Source: Halobacterium salinarum DSM 3754 (GTDB lineage: Archaea > Halobacteriota > Halobacteria > Halobacteriales > Halobacteriaceae). From it: a stretch of DNA of 64,000 bases. The stretch is from the NCBI RefSeq assembly GCF_008124605.1, contig NZ_VRYN01000001.1, positions 484,772 through 548,771 on the forward strand, given 5' to 3'. This document shows, in pieces, positions 44,485 to 51,821 of this stretch. The position numbers and the translations under genes are program-made. Under the pieces are notes generated by a model. That model had not been told where the DNA came from, ran no database searches, and worked only from the letters and a program-made list of their open reading frames with translations. How positions within the stretch are numbered: position 1 is the first letter of the stretch; every line of letters begins with the position of its first letter.

Positions 44485-44508
44485 CACCACCACAGTAGGT
44501 GGTGATAC

Positions 44509-44581
44509 GGGACTGTAGGGTAGCTTGGTATCCTTCGGGCCTTGGGTGCCCGTGACCCCGATTCAAATTCGGGCGGTCCCA
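44509..44581 (+). tRNA. tRNA-Pro (TGG)
   Basis: The 73-nt cloverleaf has acceptor GGGACTG paired with CGGTCCC, discriminator A (44581), anticodon stem CGGGC/GCCCG with loop CTTGGGT and anticodon TGG, and T arm CCCGA-TTCAAAT-TCGGG. No intron. CCA is not encoded. A lower-GC region begins immediately after it, so it may have been an integration site. Confidence 0.95.
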
Positions 44582-45064
44582 TACTGTTTAATCTATAGAC
44601 GGCCTGTATTGCCGGTTCTCGGCCGCCATACGAATCCAAGTAGCGCCGGCTCTCGATAGTCGGATAACTGGAATCGCAGAGCGCCGTTACGGGATTCTCC
44701 GGGCCGCTGACAGTTGGACGGCGACATTGAGGATTCAGACAACCACGACGTACTGTAATCGTTTTCTGAGAAGAGGCAGAGCTTGTTCGTCTGAGTTTTG
44801 ATCCATACTCTCGCCAGCAGGTGTCTACCGGAATGAGGAGAGTCGCAATTCTTATCTCCGAACCAACGTGAACCGGATTCATCGAATGCGTCGTCTGCGG
44901 TGCTGCGCTGTCTGCCGCGTCGAATCAACAGCGGCTACCGGCGGTGGTCGACCGCTTCATCGAGGAACACGACATGGAGGTCTCTGAGGAGTAGTAGTCT
45001 ATTGCTAAGGGCGCATCACTTCCTGATTCAGAAATCGGTTAGATGCCCGTTGAGGCACGTGACC
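44582..45064. other. Gene-poor, lower-GC stretch after tRNA-Pro
   Basis: This 483-nt stretch is clearly less GC-rich than the surroundings. Open frames running back through the tRNA are artefacts. Apart from the remnant at 44881-44994, I see no gene, no transposase, and no perfect copy of the tRNA 3' end. It looks like decayed accessory DNA. Confidence 0.6.
44881..44994 (+). pseudogene. Remnant of a zinc-finger-like small protein
   Basis: In frame with a TAG at 44992, 37 codons read IECVVCGAALSAASNQQRL and then PAVVDRFIEEHDMEVSEE. That is protein-like: a CxxC pair followed by an amphipathic helix. It lacks a start codon and is cut off by an in-frame TGA at 44872. This suggests the 3' end of a gene that lost its beginning. 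Weakly supported; no family recognised. Confidence 0.3.
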
Positions 45065-45766
45065 TCAGTTCGAGACGTGAGGCATCACGATGTCGTGCAG
45101 GAACTGCACGAACTCTGTCGTGTCTACGTTGGAGTCGTAGATGTCGACGTACCCGCTTTCCGTGATGAGGAAGTCGAGTGACCGGCCGTTGTACGAGAAG
45201 TTCTCGATTCCGAGCCGATTGATTTTCGCGGAGTCGATGTTCTCCCGAGCGTGTTCGTCCTTGTTCAGATGCCCGATGCTGACTTCCTTGTCAGCAGCTG
45301 CGTCCCTGTCGTAGAACCCGCCGAGCGAGTACTTCACCTCCGGGTAATCGTTGACGAATCCTCGCAGGTCGAGACGAGTGTCGACGACCTCGCCGCCGGT
45401 CGCGTCTTCGACCAGAGAGTGTGCGAAGTCGCACTCGGTGTTCTGGGTGACGATGAACTCGTCCTGGACATGGAGGACGTCCGTCACCTCGGCTCGAACT
45501 CGTGTCCCGTCAGTGCCGACATCGATTCTCCCATCGCGGTGAATCTCTGTCGACTTCGCGTCCTCGACGTGTTCCTTGGCAGCTCGACCTCGATTCCATC
45601 GGATTGACTCTCCGTCCGTGTACGCGTCGAAGGTGAGCACCGTCGGGTTGCGGACTTCAAGTGACGACAGAAGTTTCTCTCCATCCTCGTAGTGAGGCTT
45701 CGGGAAGCCACTGTCGTCGATTTCGCCGCTGGCGTCGGCGAAGTGGGCGATTGCGCCCCTATTCAT
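45065..45766 (-). CDS. Unknown accessory protein
   Basis: The 233-residue soluble, acidic protein starts MNRGAIAHFADASGEIDDSG. No motif was recognised. It is less GC-rich than its neighbours, which suggests recent acquisition. The ATG at 45766 has a clear Shine-Dalgarno GGAGGT eight bases upstream (about 45775-45780), unlike the leaderless norm, so I prefer it over a GTG at 45835. It ends with FVQFLHDIVMPHVSN. Two perfect hairpins lie ~100 nt upstream. Confidence 0.65.
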   Translation of the reverse strand: MNRGAIAHFADASGEIDDSGFPKPHYEDGEKLLSSLEVRNPTVLTFDAYTDGESIRWNRGRAAKEHVEDAKSTEIHRDGRIDVGTDGTRVRAEVTDVLHVQDEFIVTQNTECDFAHSLVEDATGGEVVDTRLDLRGFVNDYPEVKYSLGGFYDRDAAADKEVSIGHLNKDEHARENIDSAKINRLGIENFSYNGRSLDFLITESGYVDIYDSNVDTTEFVQFLHDIVMPHVSN

Positions 45767-45860
45767 CGGCTGATACCTCCGTTCTGGGTAGTAGTGCGTT
45801 CGATCATCGTTGTTACTGATGGCTGCGACTTCCACCCAGAGGCAAAGATTTACCAGCCAG

Positions 45861-45880
45861 GCATCCGGTTGTCCGGATGC
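45861..45880. repeat. Perfect hairpin, 8-bp stem, TTGT loop
   Basis: GCATCCGG-TTGT-CCGGATGC is a perfect inverted repeat. It is the first of two adjacent hairpins in the lower-GC patch. Bases 5' of it (AGCCAGGCA) can alternatively pair with TGCCTGCT further on. Confidence 0.7.
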
Positions 45881-45888
45881 AGACGCGA

Positions 45889-45903
45889 GACCTCTGAGAG
45901 GTC
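45889..45903. repeat. Perfect hairpin, 6-bp stem, TGA loop
   Basis: GACCTC-TGA-GAGGTC is a perfect inverted repeat 8 nt after the previous one. It may be an operator or part of a structured leader of the minus-strand gene at 45065-45766. Confidence 0.65.
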
Positions 45904-46015
45904 AGCCGGTGCCTGCTATGGACAGTCACCGGGTCGCTAACCTTCTGCGCTCGCCGGTCATGGCGAACGTGATACCTTTTACTACTGCCCCGGGCATGAA
46001 CCCTCCCAAAGCGTG

Positions 46016-46141
46016 GTGAAAGTGAAACAGAGTGATGGCCAAAACCGCTGGAAGGCAGAACAATTCCAGTTCCACCCTCCAGACGAACGCAGGGGGTTCG
46101 AAAAGGAGCTATTCACCGAGGAATGCAACCTGTTCCGCTGA
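46016..46141 (+). CDS. Possible 41-aa protein
   Basis: A GTG (46016; another in frame at 46013) opens 41 codons reading VKVKQSDGQNRWKAEQFQFH, then PPDERRGFEKELFTEECNLFR, then TGA. Composition is basic/acidic mixed and looks protein-like. A TATA-like taccttttactac lies about 30 nt upstream. It may be a real small gene or the tail of a degraded one. Confidence 0.3.
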   Translation: MKVKQSDGQNRWKAEQFQFHPPDERRGFEKELFTEECNLFR

Positions 46142-46151
46142 ACAAATCCGA

Positions 46152-46442
46152 CTATAGAAGCCGCTGCAACCGTGGTTTCGGCTGGTCCCGTGCGTCAATC
46201 TCTCCGTCGAGATACTGCTGCCCCCACGTCGTCACGTCGAACCAACCCTTTCCAGTCATCCCGGCCAAACCGGCGTCGGCAAGCTGGAGACAGCGCTCCC
46301 GAATCTGCCCGCTCGATATCCCTACCTCCTCGAATCGAGGATGCTCGGCCATCAGCATCGGGTTCGATTCGCCGGCTTCGTGCAGGTGTTCGAGTAGCCG
46401 TTCGTCCAGCGCTCGCAGCCACGCGGCGTGCTTCCTGACCAT
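46152..46442 (-). CDS. PhiH1-repressor-like winged-helix protein
   Basis: The 96-residue winged helix has WLRALDERLLEHLHEAGESN, then VGISSGQIRERCLQLADAGL, then GWFDVTTWGQQYLDGEIDA. This layout is typical of the haloarchaeal PhiH1-repressor-like proteins found on proviruses and plasmids. It would bind DNA as a dimer. It is evidence that the patch 44582-46442 derives from a mobile element. Target operator unknown. Confidence 0.78.
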   Translation of the reverse strand: MVRKHAAWLRALDERLLEHLHEAGESNPMLMAEHPRFEEVGISSGQIRERCLQLADAGLAGMTGKGWFDVTTWGQQYLDGEIDARDQPKPRLQRLL

Positions 46443-46480
46443 CGGTAGACGACTGGTGGCGACTTTTCTCGCGTCCGGTG

Positions 46481-46876
46481 CTACGCGCCGTTCGTACTGC
46501 GCTCTGCCTGCTCGTCGGAGGGGTCTTCTCCCTCGTCACGGACGGACTGCCCGGAACTCGCGTCGTACTCGCCCTCAAGGTGGGCGCGACCGTCGTCTGT
46601 GACGACGTAGACGCCGGCGAGTTCGGTGGCGGTGACCTGCGTGGTGAACTCGTCGTCCTCCGGCACGGCGTCGTCGGCGACGACAGTGATGGCTTCGATG
46701 GGGTCCCGGCGGAGGAACGCGAGCAGCCGCTGGATACGGGTCGGGGTGCCGCCCTTCCGGCAGACGAGGATGTAGCGGTCGGCGGCCAGTGATTCGAGCG
46801 CCGGCTCCAGGTCGGCGTCGGCGTGTTCCTCCGGCGGCAGGGCGTGAATGACACTCGCGGTCAGTGTCTCGGGCAC
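46481..46876 (-). CDS. Conserved haloarchaeal protein, unrecognised
   Basis: The 131-residue protein starts at GTG (VPETLTASVIHALPPEEHAD) and contains ALESLAADRYILVCRKGGTPTRI, FLRRDPIEAITVVADDAVP and a disordered Glu/Asp/Ser-rich tail. The compact alpha/beta part (about 1-100) has no motif I can name. The frame to 47101 continues into the divergent pilin-like gene and is not used. GC content is back to the chromosomal level here. Confidence 0.65.
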   Translation of the reverse strand: MPETLTASVIHALPPEEHADADLEPALESLAADRYILVCRKGGTPTRIQRLLAFLRRDPIEAITVVADDAVPEDDEFTTQVTATELAGVYVVTDDGRAHLEGEYDASSGQSVRDEGEDPSDEQAERSTNGA

Positions 46877-47357: not shown

Positions 47358-49021
47358 GGGTCGGTGAGCGCGATGGGCGCGGGATCGGTCGTGATTTCGA
47401 GGCGCACGCCGTCCTCGTAGTCGGGATCGACGCTGACCGTCCAGCCGTGGACGCGGGCCAGCGTCTGGACGTTCGGCAGATGCATCCCGGCTTCGGTCGT
47501 GGGCACGGCGTCGCCGTAGTCGAAGAACCGCGTGGTGTCAGTGACCGACGGCGTGGCGCCGTTGTCCGCGATGGAGAAGCCGTTGTCGTGGATGGCGACG
47601 GTGACGGCGGTGGCGTTGTTGTCGGTGGTGAACGCGAACGCGGATTCGAAGAGGTCTTCGAGGCGCACGCGGTCGGCGGAGACCGTCGTGTCCCCGGTGA
47701 CGGTGAGCTCGCAGTCGCCGGTGTCGGTGGTCTGCCAGCCGGCGCGGGCGGCCGCCGCCACGTCGACGGTGGTGGTGTCCCGGAGGGTCCGGCCGTGGCG
47801 GGCGAGCGTGGACAGGTCGTTGACGCGGTCGGCCATGCGGTCGACGGCGTCGGAGACGCGGGCCAGTGATTGCTGGGCGTCGGTGACGTTCTCGGATTCC
47901 AGCGCGCTGGCGGCCTGCGCGGTGTAGCCGGACGCGACCTGGATGGCGTTGCGGAGCTCGTGGTTGACGCCGGCGGCGAACCCTTCGAGTTGGGCGTTGT
48001 GGCGTTCGACCTCGCGGCGGTGGCGTTCGGTTTCGGTGATCTCCGTGAAGACGATGACGCGGCCGAGGTTGCTGGCACCCAGCGAGAACGTGGATTCGGC
48101 GACGAGGTAGTATTCGGTGTCGTCGCTGTGGCGCAACGCGAGCACGTCGTCGTCGCCGTCGACGTGCTCGGCGATCGCTGGCGCGGCGGTGGACAGCGGG
48201 ACGCCGGTGGCGTCCCGGAGAGTGGGGAAGCGCGACCGGGCGGTGTCGTTGACCGCGCGCACGCGGTCGTCCTCGTCGAGCAACGCGACCGGCTCGGCGA
48301 TGTCACCGGTGAGTTGCACCGCCAGGAACCGGTCTTCGTGGATGAACAGGACGCCGACGGCGAACACGGCGACGCCGAGCGGCGAGTGGATCAGGTCGAC
48401 GAGCGTCGAGCTGGCGAAGCTATAGACGTCTAAGATCGCCGGCAGCGCCATCACGGCGACGAGTCCCGCCAGCGGCCGGGTGCCGTAGTCGGCTTCGCGG
48501 AACAGCTCGAACAGCATGAACATGCCGATGGCGGCCAGCGCGTACGACAGGCCCGTGACCGCCCAATGGAAGATGCCGTGCTCGACGACGACGGCGGGGA
48601 AGCTGGCGGGCTGGTAGGTGGCGCGGTAGTAGAGGTGATGGAAGGGGTTGGTGAGTTTCACCGCGACGACCGAGAGGTACGCGAGGATGCTGCCGCGGAC
48701 GACCCAGGTGTCCCGGTGGAGGACACGGCCGGTGTACGCCGAGCAGAAGTAGAGCCACGCCCACACGGTCGAGAACCCCAGGATGAGGCCCGCGAGGTAC
48801 GCGACGTTGGCGATCAGCTGTGATGGTGCCAGCAGCGTCACGACGTGCGTGACCGACCAGCCGCTGGCGGTTGCCAGCAGCGCGATCAGTCCGTGGCGTG
48901 TCTCGCGGTCTTCGATGCGGGTTGCCTGCAGGATGCTGGCGGCTGTCAGGACGGCCCCCAGAACGAACAGTCCCGCGTACAGCGAGTCAATCAGCGTGAG
49001 CCCGAGAACAGTCTCGGGCAC
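47354..49021 (-). CDS. Histidine kinase with 7TM and PAS domains, degenerate ATPase part
   Basis: The 555-residue protein has seven transmembrane helices (about 1-230), the N-terminal 7TM sensor type. A PAS domain (about 245-330) and a HisKA helix with the H-box NHELRNAI (His354) follow. The ATPase half is unusual: the N-box asparagines are absent (LEDLFESAFAF), the D-box is shortened to SIADNGATPS, and the G2 region is GMHLPNVQ. It may still bind ATP or act only as a phosphatase or partner. GTG start 49021; it is divergent from mcm. No response regulator is adjacent. Confidence 0.82.
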   Translation of the reverse strand: MPETVLGLTLIDSLYAGLFVLGAVLTAASILQATRIEDRETRHGLIALLATASGWSVTHVVTLLAPSQLIANVAYLAGLILGFSTVWAWLYFCSAYTGRVLHRDTWVVRGSILAYLSVVAVKLTNPFHHLYYRATYQPASFPAVVVEHGIFHWAVTGLSYALAAIGMFMLFELFREADYGTRPLAGLVAVMALPAILDVYSFASSTLVDLIHSPLGVAVFAVGVLFIHEDRFLAVQLTGDIAEPVALLDEDDRVRAVNDTARSRFPTLRDATGVPLSTAAPAIAEHVDGDDDVLALRHSDDTEYYLVAESTFSLGASNLGRVIVFTEITETERHRREVERHNAQLEGFAAGVNHELRNAIQVASGYTAQAASALESENVTDAQQSLARVSDAVDRMADRVNDLSTLARHGRTLRDTTTVDVAAAARAGWQTTDTGDCELTVTGDTTVSADRVRLEDLFESAFAFTTDNNATAVTVAIHDNGFSIADNGATPSVTDTTRFFDYGDAVPTTEAGMHLPNVQTLARVHGWTVSVDPDYEDGVRLEITTDPAPIALTDP

Positions 49022-49181
49022 TACGCACCCTCCCTCATGCAGACTCAATACAGTCCTGAAGACTCCTAAGCGTTGGCTTCTCGGACAGCAGCGTGGTGTG
49101 CGATGGCGACGGCGGGCCGGCCTGTGTGGCGGTGGTTTGCGAAGGTTCTTACGCCAGCGAGCAGTATTCTGGAAGGACAGA

Positions 49182-51821
49182 ATGGCCCAGGCCGCCAACC
49201 AGGAGCTCGTTGACCAGTTCGAGGAGTTCTACCGGCGATACTACAGCGACGAGATCGGGAACCTCGCACGCCAGTATCCCCGCGAATCGAAGTCCCTCGA
49301 GTTGCACTGGCGGGATCTCTACCAGATGGATCCGGACCTGGCCGACGATTACATCAGCCATCCCGACCAGCTCCAGGAAGCCGCCGAGGAGGCGTTGCGG
49401 GTGTACGATCTGCCCGTCGACGTGAGCCTCGGGCAGGCACACGTTCGCGTGCACGGGCTGGCCGAGCACACGGACATCCGGGCGATCCGCGCCGAACACC
49501 TCAACACGATGGTTTCGATCCAGGGGATGGTGCGGAAGGCCACCGACGTGATGCCGAAGATCCAGCGTGCGGTGTTCGTCTGCCAGCGCTGTGGCACCGA
49601 CACGGAGGTGCCACAGGGGGATGCGGGGTTCCAGGAGCCGTATCAGTGTGAGTCCTGCGAGCGCCAGGGACCGTTCAAGCTCGACCCGGATCGGTCGGAG
49701 TTCGTGGACTCCCAGAAGCTGCGCATCCAGGAGTCACCCGAGGGGTTGGGCGGCGGGGAGACGCCACAGAGCATCGACGTCCACGTCGAGGACGACGCCA
49801 CCGGCAACGTCACGCCGGGCGATCACGTCACCGTCACCGGCGTCCTCCGGCTCGACCAAAGCGAGGAGGCCACCGACTCGCCGGTGTTCGAACATTACAT
49901 GGAAGGGTCGTCGGTCGTCATCGAGGACGCCGAGTTCGACGAGTTGAACATCTCCGAGGCGGACAAAGAGGAGATCGTCGCGCTCTCGGACCACGAGGAG
50001 ATCCACGAGGAGATGGTGGATTCGATGGCGCCGGCGATCTACGGCCACCGCGAGGCCAAGCTCGCGATGATGCTGCAGTTGTTCTCGGGCGTCACCAAAC
50101 ACCTCCCCGATAAGTCCCGCATTCGGGGCGACCTCCACATGCTGCTCATCGGTGACCCGGGAACCGGGAAGTGCGTGCGGGGCGACACCACGGTGGCGCT
50201 CGCCGACGGCAGCGAGCGCGAGATCCGGGACCTCGTCGAAGCGAACCTCGACGACCCGCGGCCCGTCGATGACGGCGTCTGGGACGATGTGGACGTGGCC
50301 GTCCCGTCGCTTGCAGCCGACGGCAGGCTCGTGCAGCGCCGCGCGACGAAGGTCTGGAAGCGCGAAGCCCCCGAGACGATGTACCGCGTGCGGACGGCGG
50401 CCGGTCACCGGCTCACCGTCACGCCGAGCCACCCGCTGTTCGTCGCCGGGTCGCACGGCCCGGACGCGGTCCGAACCGAGGAACTGGAGGTCGGACAGCT
50501 CGTCGGGGTCGCCCCGGACGGCGACGGCTCCGGGCAGGTCGCACCCGACGGGGGCGTTATCCGGGACGCACAACCAGCGCCGGTGGGGAACGCCGAAACC
50601 GTCGCGTGGAGCGCCATCGAATCGATTACCGAAGTCGAACCCGACGAAGAGTGGGTGTACGACCTCGAAGTTGAGGGGACCCACAGTTACCTCACCGACG
50701 GCGTGGTCTCGCACAACTCCCAGATGATCTCCTACGTGCAGAACATCGCGCCCCGGTCGGTGTACACCTCCGGGAAGGGGTCGAGTGCGGCGGGGTTGAC
50801 CGCCGCGGCCGTTCGCGACGACTTCGGTGACGGCCAGCAGTGGAGCTTGGAGGCGGGCGCGCTGGTGCTTGCGGACAACGGCGTGGCGGCCGTCGACGAG
50901 TTGGACAAGATGGCCGACGACGACCGGTCGGCGATGCACGAGGCGCTCGAACAGCAGAAGATCTCCGTCTCGAAGGCGGGCATCAACGCGACGCTGAAGG
51001 CGCGGTGTTCGCTGTTGGGCGCGGCGAACCCGAAGTACGGGCGGTTCGACCAGTACGAGCCGATCGGCGAGCAGATCGACCTGGAGCCGGCGTTGATCTC
51101 GCGGTTCGACCTGATTTTCACCGTGACCGATCAGCCCGACCCCGAGGAGGACGCGGCGCTGGCGGATCACATCCTGCAGACCAACTACGCCGGGGAGTTG
51201 AACACGCAAAACGAGGAACTCGCGAACGCGAACTACTCGGAGGCGGAGATCGAGAGCCAGACCGAGGACGTTGCGCCGGCGATCGAGCCGGGGTTGTTGC
51301 GGAAGTACATCGCGTACGCTCGGCGGACGTGTTTCCCGACGATGACCCCGGACGCGCGCCAGGCCATCGAGGAGTTCTACGTGGATCTGCGATCGAAGGG
51401 CGCGGACGAGGACGCGCCGGTGCCGGTGACCGCGCGCCAGCTGGAGGCGATCGTGCGGTTGGCGGAGGCGTCGGCGCGGCTCCGGTTGTCGGATTCCGTG
51501 GAGAAAAGCGACGCCGACCGCGTGATCGGGATCGTGCAGTCGTGTCTCCAGGACATCGGTGTGGACCCCGAAACAGGCGAGTTCGACGCCGACGTGGTCG
51601 AAACCGGGCAGTCGAAGACCCAGCGGGATCGTGTGAAGAACATCAAGGCACTGATCGGGGAGATCGAAGAGGAGTTCGACGACGGCGCGCCGGTCGAGGA
51701 GGTCCTCGATCGTGCCGAGGAGATCGGGATGGACGCCGGGAAGGCCGAACACGAGATCGAGAAGCTCAAGGAACGCGGGGAGCTCTATCAGCCGAACACG
51801 GACCACTTGCGCTCGATCTAG
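49182..51821 (+). CDS. mcm: MCM replicative helicase with intein
   Basis: The 879-residue precursor (697 after splicing) has the N-terminal zinc ribbon CQRCGTD ... CESCERQ (near 138-165) and an OB fold. The AAA+ core has Walker A GDPGTGK (324-330), interrupted by the intein, then Walker B LADNGVAAVDELDKM and sensor GAANPKYGRF. A C-terminal winged helix closes the protein. It is the ring helicase of the archaeal replication fork. Start ATG 49182 has ggaagga just upstream. The upstream extension of the frame belongs to the opposite-strand kinase. Confidence 0.97.
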   Translation: MAQAANQELVDQFEEFYRRYYSDEIGNLARQYPRESKSLELHWRDLYQMDPDLADDYISHPDQLQEAAEEALRVYDLPVDVSLGQAHVRVHGLAEHTDIRAIRAEHLNTMVSIQGMVRKATDVMPKIQRAVFVCQRCGTDTEVPQGDAGFQEPYQCESCERQGPFKLDPDRSEFVDSQKLRIQESPEGLGGGETPQSIDVHVEDDATGNVTPGDHVTVTGVLRLDQSEEATDSPVFEHYMEGSSVVIEDAEFDELNISEADKEEIVALSDHEEIHEEMVDSMAPAIYGHREAKLAMMLQLFSGVTKHLPDKSRIRGDLHMLLIGDPGTGKCVRGDTTVALADGSEREIRDLVEANLDDPRPVDDGVWDDVDVAVPSLAADGRLVQRRATKVWKREAPETMYRVRTAAGHRLTVTPSHPLFVAGSHGPDAVRTEELEVGQLVGVAPDGDGSGQVAPDGGVIRDAQPAPVGNAETVAWSAIESITEVEPDEEWVYDLEVEGTHSYLTDGVVSHNSQMISYVQNIAPRSVYTSGKGSSAAGLTAAAVRDDFGDGQQWSLEAGALVLADNGVAAVDELDKMADDDRSAMHEALEQQKISVSKAGINATLKARCSLLGAANPKYGRFDQYEPIGEQIDLEPALISRFDLIFTVTDQPDPEEDAALADHILQTNYAGELNTQNEELANANYSEAEIESQTEDVAPAIEPGLLRKYIAYARRTCFPTMTPDARQAIEEFYVDLRSKGADEDAPVPVTARQLEAIVRLAEASARLRLSDSVEKSDADRVIGIVQSCLQDIGVDPETGEFDADVVETGQSKTQRDRVKNIKALIGEIEEEFDDGAPVEEVLDRAEEIGMDAGKAEHEIEKLKERGELYQPNTDHLRSI
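50172..50717 (+). other. Mini-intein in the MCM P-loop (182 aa)
   Basis: The intein begins at Cys331 (CVRGDTTVALADG, block A), has block B GHRLTVTPSHPLF with the TxxH motif, block F DEEWVYDLEVEG and block G TDGVVSHN ending at Asn512. Ser513 is the +1 extein residue. It interrupts GDPGTGK|S, so the helicase cannot bind ATP until spliced. The length leaves no room for a LAGLIDADG homing endonuclease. It matches the MCM-a insertion site and the size I recall for the Halobacterium NRC-1 MCM intein. Confidence 0.95.

Follow-up and report, generated by a model that had tools for sequence, protein, structure and literature searches.

A structured candidate 5' leader in Halobacterium salinarum and a candidate RNA family upstream of related genes

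Two short perfect hairpins lie 8 nt apart, just upstream of a minus-strand gene, in the 64,000-nucleotide stretch of Halobacterium salinarum DSM 3754 analysed here (the window). The question they raise is whether such palindromes form a regulatory switch, mark the end of a mobile element, or belong to some larger structure. The host genome (G000) comprises 2.36 Mb, and its family is represented in this analysis by 26 genomes of seven genera. The hairpins, their surroundings and the gene are laid out as follows.

45861..45880, minus: hairpin 1, GCATCCGG-TTGT-CCGGATGC, 8 bp with a 4-nt loop
45889..45903, minus: hairpin 2, GACCTCT-G-AGAGGTC, 7 bp (in RNA, GACCUC/GAGGUC)
45906..45932, minus: third hairpin, CCGGUG..CACCGG with inner CUG/CAG
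45774..45859, minus: long imperfect hairpin, in which a Shine-Dalgarno (SD)-like GGAGG (45780-45776) is paired with 45844-45848
45767..45945, minus: putative 5' leader, its start near 45945 being a promoter-spacing estimate only
45065..45766, minus: gene for a 233-aa acidic soluble protein (MNRGAIAHF...) of the phrog_18169 family

The initial annotation had described two adjacent hairpins with a possible long-range pairing between their flanks, and both are indeed present: the arms AGCCAGGCA (45855-45863) and TGCCTGCT (45910-45917) can form an 8-bp helix containing one bulge. It had also proposed a search for other copies in the genome; the hairpin pair proved to be single-copy, with no dispersed repeat family, which speaks against an element end or a dispersed repeat. 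IS200/IS605 and other palindromic element ends likewise carry short perfect hairpins close together; the window differs from them in that the pair has no second copy in the genome and none of the nearby genes examined encodes a transposase, so the suggestion of a mobile-element end was not borne out. DNA relatives of the leader were sought among 391 genomes of the class, plasmids and phages, and none was found; short class-wide matches (L083-L086, 25-41 bases) were set aside as chance once their sequence had been read. A generic scan returned no terminator at the hairpins. With Rfam 15, a gathering-threshold scan of the window returned tRNA only, and a scan of the locus at E<=1 gave no match. 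Perfect hairpins with stems of at least 7 bp number 99 in the window and 75 in shuffles, and adjacent pairs of them number 4 against a mean of 1.24 in 25 dinucleotide shuffles; one shuffle reached 7, so the hairpin pair alone is not significant.

The unusual feature is the entire minus-strand leader of the gene rather than the hairpins alone. Folding of 45767-45985 on the minus strand gives z = -5.2 to -5.3, with none of 200 shuffles as low, and the 170-nt leader body gives z = -5.66; the local region as a whole reaches -3.2 on the plus strand and -4.1 on the minus. Among 638 tiles of 200 nt, the one starting at 45767 ranks first, a rank somewhat favoured by setting the frame at the gene start. 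Shifted by 20 nt, the tile falls to z = -2.6 and rank 31, and the fold thus hinges on base-pairing by the final 20 nt, including the SD-like GGAGG. Pairing probabilities computed on 45945-45740 (minus) are 0.98-1.0 for hairpin 1, about 0.78 for hairpin 2 and 0.84-1.0 for the outer helix of the third hairpin. The SD site and leader that had been ascribed to the minus gene both find support: an SD-like GGAGG precedes the ATG at 45766, and the upstream region is single-copy, strongly folded (z = -5.3) and has its best promoter-like site beyond the hairpins. This SD-like site is paired with a probability of 0.86-1.0; the AUG is paired at only 0.04-0.10, leaving the start codon open. In Haloferax volcanii SD motifs are not used for initiation (PMC3986360), which weakens an SD reading in haloarchaea.

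The initial annotation had further envisioned mutually exclusive folds, and this part did not hold. Forcing the AGCCAGGCA/TGCCTGCT helix changes the stability from -88.6 to -73.7 kcal/mol (a cost of about 15 kcal/mol), and forcing pairing of the start codon gives -76.9 kcal/mol (about 12). Under the parameters used, which describe 37 C and ordinary salt rather than molar KCl, neither alternative is predicted to compete, and the predicted fold places the TGCCTGCT arm in the third hairpin, not in the long-range helix.

Whether transcription passes through the hairpins can be approached from promoter-like sites. A BRE/TATA matrix was derived from 43 upstream regions belonging to other members of the protein family, where the element it recovers lies about 39 nt before the ATG, as expected for leaderless genes; most other members have a TATA-like site about 30 nt before the ATG, also as in leaderless genes. 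The matrix exceeds a score of 6.4 about once per 5 kb per strand. Two features emerge upstream of the window gene.

45970..45983, minus: BRE/TATA-like site, AGTAAAAGGTATCA, score 5.5, the best within 300 nt upstream of the gene
46013..46141, plus: possible divergent small ORF with a GTG start and a promoter-like site (45970, score 5.0) at the spacing of leaderless genes

A promoter between the hairpins and the gene would have spoken against a transcript through them; the candidate there is weak (score 1.9), and the best site lies upstream. These positions weakly favour transcription through the hairpins. Short sequences similar to the small ORF occur near locus L003 and upstream of the L072 gene. 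At 46015-46024 (minus) an element, CACTTTCACC, is common to the region upstream of a ribonucleotide-reductase-like gene in a second genome of the set, G009; in the form CACTTTCACCACGCTTTGGGAG it is found both there in the window and at about 1500-1530 of L003, upstream of unrelated genes, and is perhaps a promoter element.

The leader lies in a distinctive setting. A tRNA-Pro gene occupies 44509-44581, and just downstream a low-GC stretch (about 44500-46250, with 54-60% G+C inside surroundings of 66-71%) holds the hairpins. Its borders are shared with G009.

44869..44994, plus: shared flank, 92% identical to G009 (L051 94-219), where it adjoins different cargo
46156..46619, plus: shared flank, 84% identical to G009 over 46170-46619 (L051 5612-6061)
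46152-46442, minus: winged-helix regulator gene (phrog_2440), inside the right flank

Since the two common flanks enclose different cargo in G009, the window stretch is a site of cargo exchange. The G009 cargo includes a kinase matching PD-T4-6 (defence-kinase-like), and we read integrase-like remains there as well; phosphoesterase-like and TGT-like genes also lie between the flanks. Further along the window, at 48783-51821, an ORF reads as an MCM replicative helicase gene with an apparent intein insertion.

The downstream protein offers little functional guidance. It is a distant member of phrog_18169 (E=2.5e-16), and searches of Pfam, NCBIfam and PADLOC gave no significant match; a search of the PDB likewise found no relative of the family, and an AlphaFold model from a two-sequence alignment reaches a pLDDT of 38.9. 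Relatives occur in 45 of the 391 class genomes, and protein searches of the viral_contigs set and phage records found none. The window gene shares family membership with these proteins and differs from most of them in its upstream region, since most other members were found with a TATA-like site and without leader RNA. In a tree of 52 rows, the window protein falls with those of L196, L200, L197, L198, L199 and L244 in a clade of seven (support 100/97), the remaining 45 rows forming the other side.

It is at these sister loci that a second RNA comes into view. Five of the six other clade loci (all but L244) carry a structured RNA of about 215 nt upstream of the gene, and the same RNA is found on a Natrinema thermotolerans plasmid (L242) before an unrelated hydrophobic peptide.

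L196 8171-8389: conserved RNA
L200 7744-7962: conserved RNA
L197 10890-11086: conserved RNA
L198 9818-9606: conserved RNA
L199 10267-10481: conserved RNA
L242 5880-5679: conserved RNA

All six share the motif CCCGACYGGR-N6-9-CCAGCCGARG. L198 and L199 are 69% identical over 320 nt, though they come from different families, and their frames shift against each other (read by eye), so that coding capacity was rejected as an explanation. For helices picked by eye, pairing with the own strand is 97-100%, against 42-74% when strands are swapped; own-strand pairing is high by construction, because the strands were chosen, and the real tests are the swapped-strand control and cross-detection between two models, R1 (L198, L199, L242) and R2 (L196, L200, L197). 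R1 finds L196, L197 and L200, on which it was not trained, at the expected position and in the expected orientation (E 0.001-0.03 in 304 kb); R2 finds the untrained L242 (E 0.002) but misses L198 and L199. A pseudoknot between the loop of the RNA's hairpin A and a strand before P6 pairs 5-8 nt in all six, a sum reached by 44 of 20,000 shuffles. Hairpin A alone is no more stable than shuffles and is supported by position and covariation. The six loci may thus be regarded as a previously undescribed candidate structured RNA family, with covarying helices and a pseudoknot.

Matches elsewhere add little to this picture. Rfam scans of L055, L056, L059, L076, L242 and L200 gave no credible match, and a PyrR207 match in L200 was sub-threshold and taken as chance. 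Motif scans of genome_contigs and viral_contigs yielded Haloferax sulfurifontis itself as the only relevant match; the others were scattered over unrelated lineages and were also taken as chance. R1 also gives one match in the window's own genome (L264, 13.3 bits, E 0.29); it falls within an M48-peptidase-like gene, on the antisense strand, and was dismissed as chance.

The company kept by the conserved RNA suggests, through gene content, a function in defence or plasmid maintenance. In all six loci it adjoins a divergent gene of about 220 aa whose product has two hydrophobic segments and, in our reading, a winged-helix-like N-terminal part. At L244 the ~230-aa and membrane proteins are both present without the RNA; at L242 the RNA and membrane protein are present, and a small hydrophobic peptide replaces the ~230-aa protein. 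That peptide (MTSIKPQSG..., 5636-5475, minus), downstream of the RNA, has a type I toxin-like look. L197 neighbours a CBASS cyclase and a 2TM effector, L198 neighbours GmrSD/BREX/DISARM-like genes, and L200 and L242 are plasmids.

Does the window leader belong to this RNA? It directly precedes a gene of the RNA-linked clade, which invites the comparison, and the two have in common the same-clade protein downstream, a long multi-helix fold and a mobile or defence context. Across the seven loci of the RNA group, window included, leader z averages -3.0, against -0.5 for 48 other family leaders (Mann-Whitney p = 7e-5; 2e-4 without the window). The conserved RNA differs from the window leader in having the motif, the pseudoknot and the divergent membrane gene. 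Direct reading and a shortened-motif scan of the loci both found the CCCGACYGGR-N6-9-CCAGCCGARG motif absent from the window leader; with filters off, R1 and R2 gave no match above about 0 bits there on the minus strand, nor did a six-row sequence profile match. The best loop pairing reaches only 3-4 nt, and no divergent winged-helix membrane gene was found within 40-52 kb or anywhere in the genome. The leader is therefore not assigned to the conserved RNA, though it might act along similar lines, as a gene-controlling leader.

We give about an even chance to the reading that the region is a structured, orphan, cis-acting 5' leader of the minus gene 45065-45766, the hairpins being two of its helices. 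Transcription would start near 45945 and run through the hairpins; the fold would regulate the gene in cis by restricting how readily ribosomes reach the start-codon region, until a trigger (a ligand, protein or physiological change) opened it. The stable fold, SD pairing, single copy and structured RNA of clade-mates argue for this, as do the low-GC cargo site beside tRNA-Pro and the location of the strongest promoter-like site beyond the hairpins, in a family whose members are mostly of leaderless type. It is also encouraged by work in Haloferax, where RNA structure masking the SD and start codon controls reporter translation (PMC8241225). Against it stand the absence of DNA relatives among the class genomes, plasmids and phages searched, the modest promoter score, the frame-dependent tile z and the unpaired AUG; haloarchaea may have no need for an SD (PMC3986360), the conserved-RNA models miss the leader, and the genome lacks the divergent partner. 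It is unlikely, yet deserves attention, that the structure is functionless: 45766-46013 would then be GC-rich divergent promoter DNA with little or no leader transcription, and its palindromes would be due to chance or would serve as protein-binding sites. In favour of this explanation, the window is rich in adjacent perfect hairpins, promoter-like sites of similar strength lie on both strands near 45970-45983, and the leader is not conserved among class genomes, plasmids or phages; however, the leader z lies beyond all 200 shuffles in a region GC-poorer than its surroundings, and the leaders of relatives are structured.

That the leader is instead a far-diverged member of the conserved RNA, having lost the motif (CCCGACYGGR/CCAGCCGAGG), the P3 extension and the pseudoknot, seems rather improbable. 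It holds the same position before a same-clade protein, with similar length and a strong fold, and an 8-bp hairpin at 45948-45969 followed by CAGAAGG and GCGACCCGG can be mapped by eye in roughly the family order; yet R1, R2 and the six-sequence profile miss it, loop pairing is at most 3-4 nt, and the genome has no divergent winged-helix membrane gene. A genuine two-state switch through AGCCAGGCA/TGCCTGCT would draw on the pairable arms and their single bulge, but it lies about 15 kcal/mol above the best fold, the right arm is also in a strong local hairpin, and there is no comparative support; we consider it very improbable indeed. More broadly, and as a doubtful proposal, the loci could represent a hitherto undescribed module, built around an RNA and carried by haloarchaeal plasmids and defence islands, of which the window would hold a far-diverged or re-invented RNA version. 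Such a module would join a pseudoknotted RNA, a divergent winged-helix membrane protein and an interchangeable third component (either the ~230-aa protein or the small hydrophobic peptide), and the RNA may sense infection and then release the effector.

Among known systems, a parallel to the structured-leader reading is offered by translational riboswitches and structured 5' UTRs, such as the synthetic theophylline riboswitch E of Haloferax volcanii (PMC8241225), in which leader structure likewise covers an SD-like site. Translational riboswitches differ from the window leader, which has no known aptamer or ligand, no supported second state and, in the model, an unmasked start codon; two exclusive folds of similar energy were not found, the alternatives costing 12-15 kcal/mol under ordinary-salt parameters. 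Most haloarchaeal transcripts are leaderless (PMC3986360), and long structured leaders are uncommon in these archaea.

Taken alone, the window leader is a modest orphan candidate. To our knowledge, few natural regulatory RNAs are known in haloarchaea. The conserved RNA is the main by-product of this analysis: a concrete new candidate with a fixed gene partner, near CBASS and restriction-type genes, which could show whether archaeal defence and plasmid-maintenance genes use RNA leaders as sensors.
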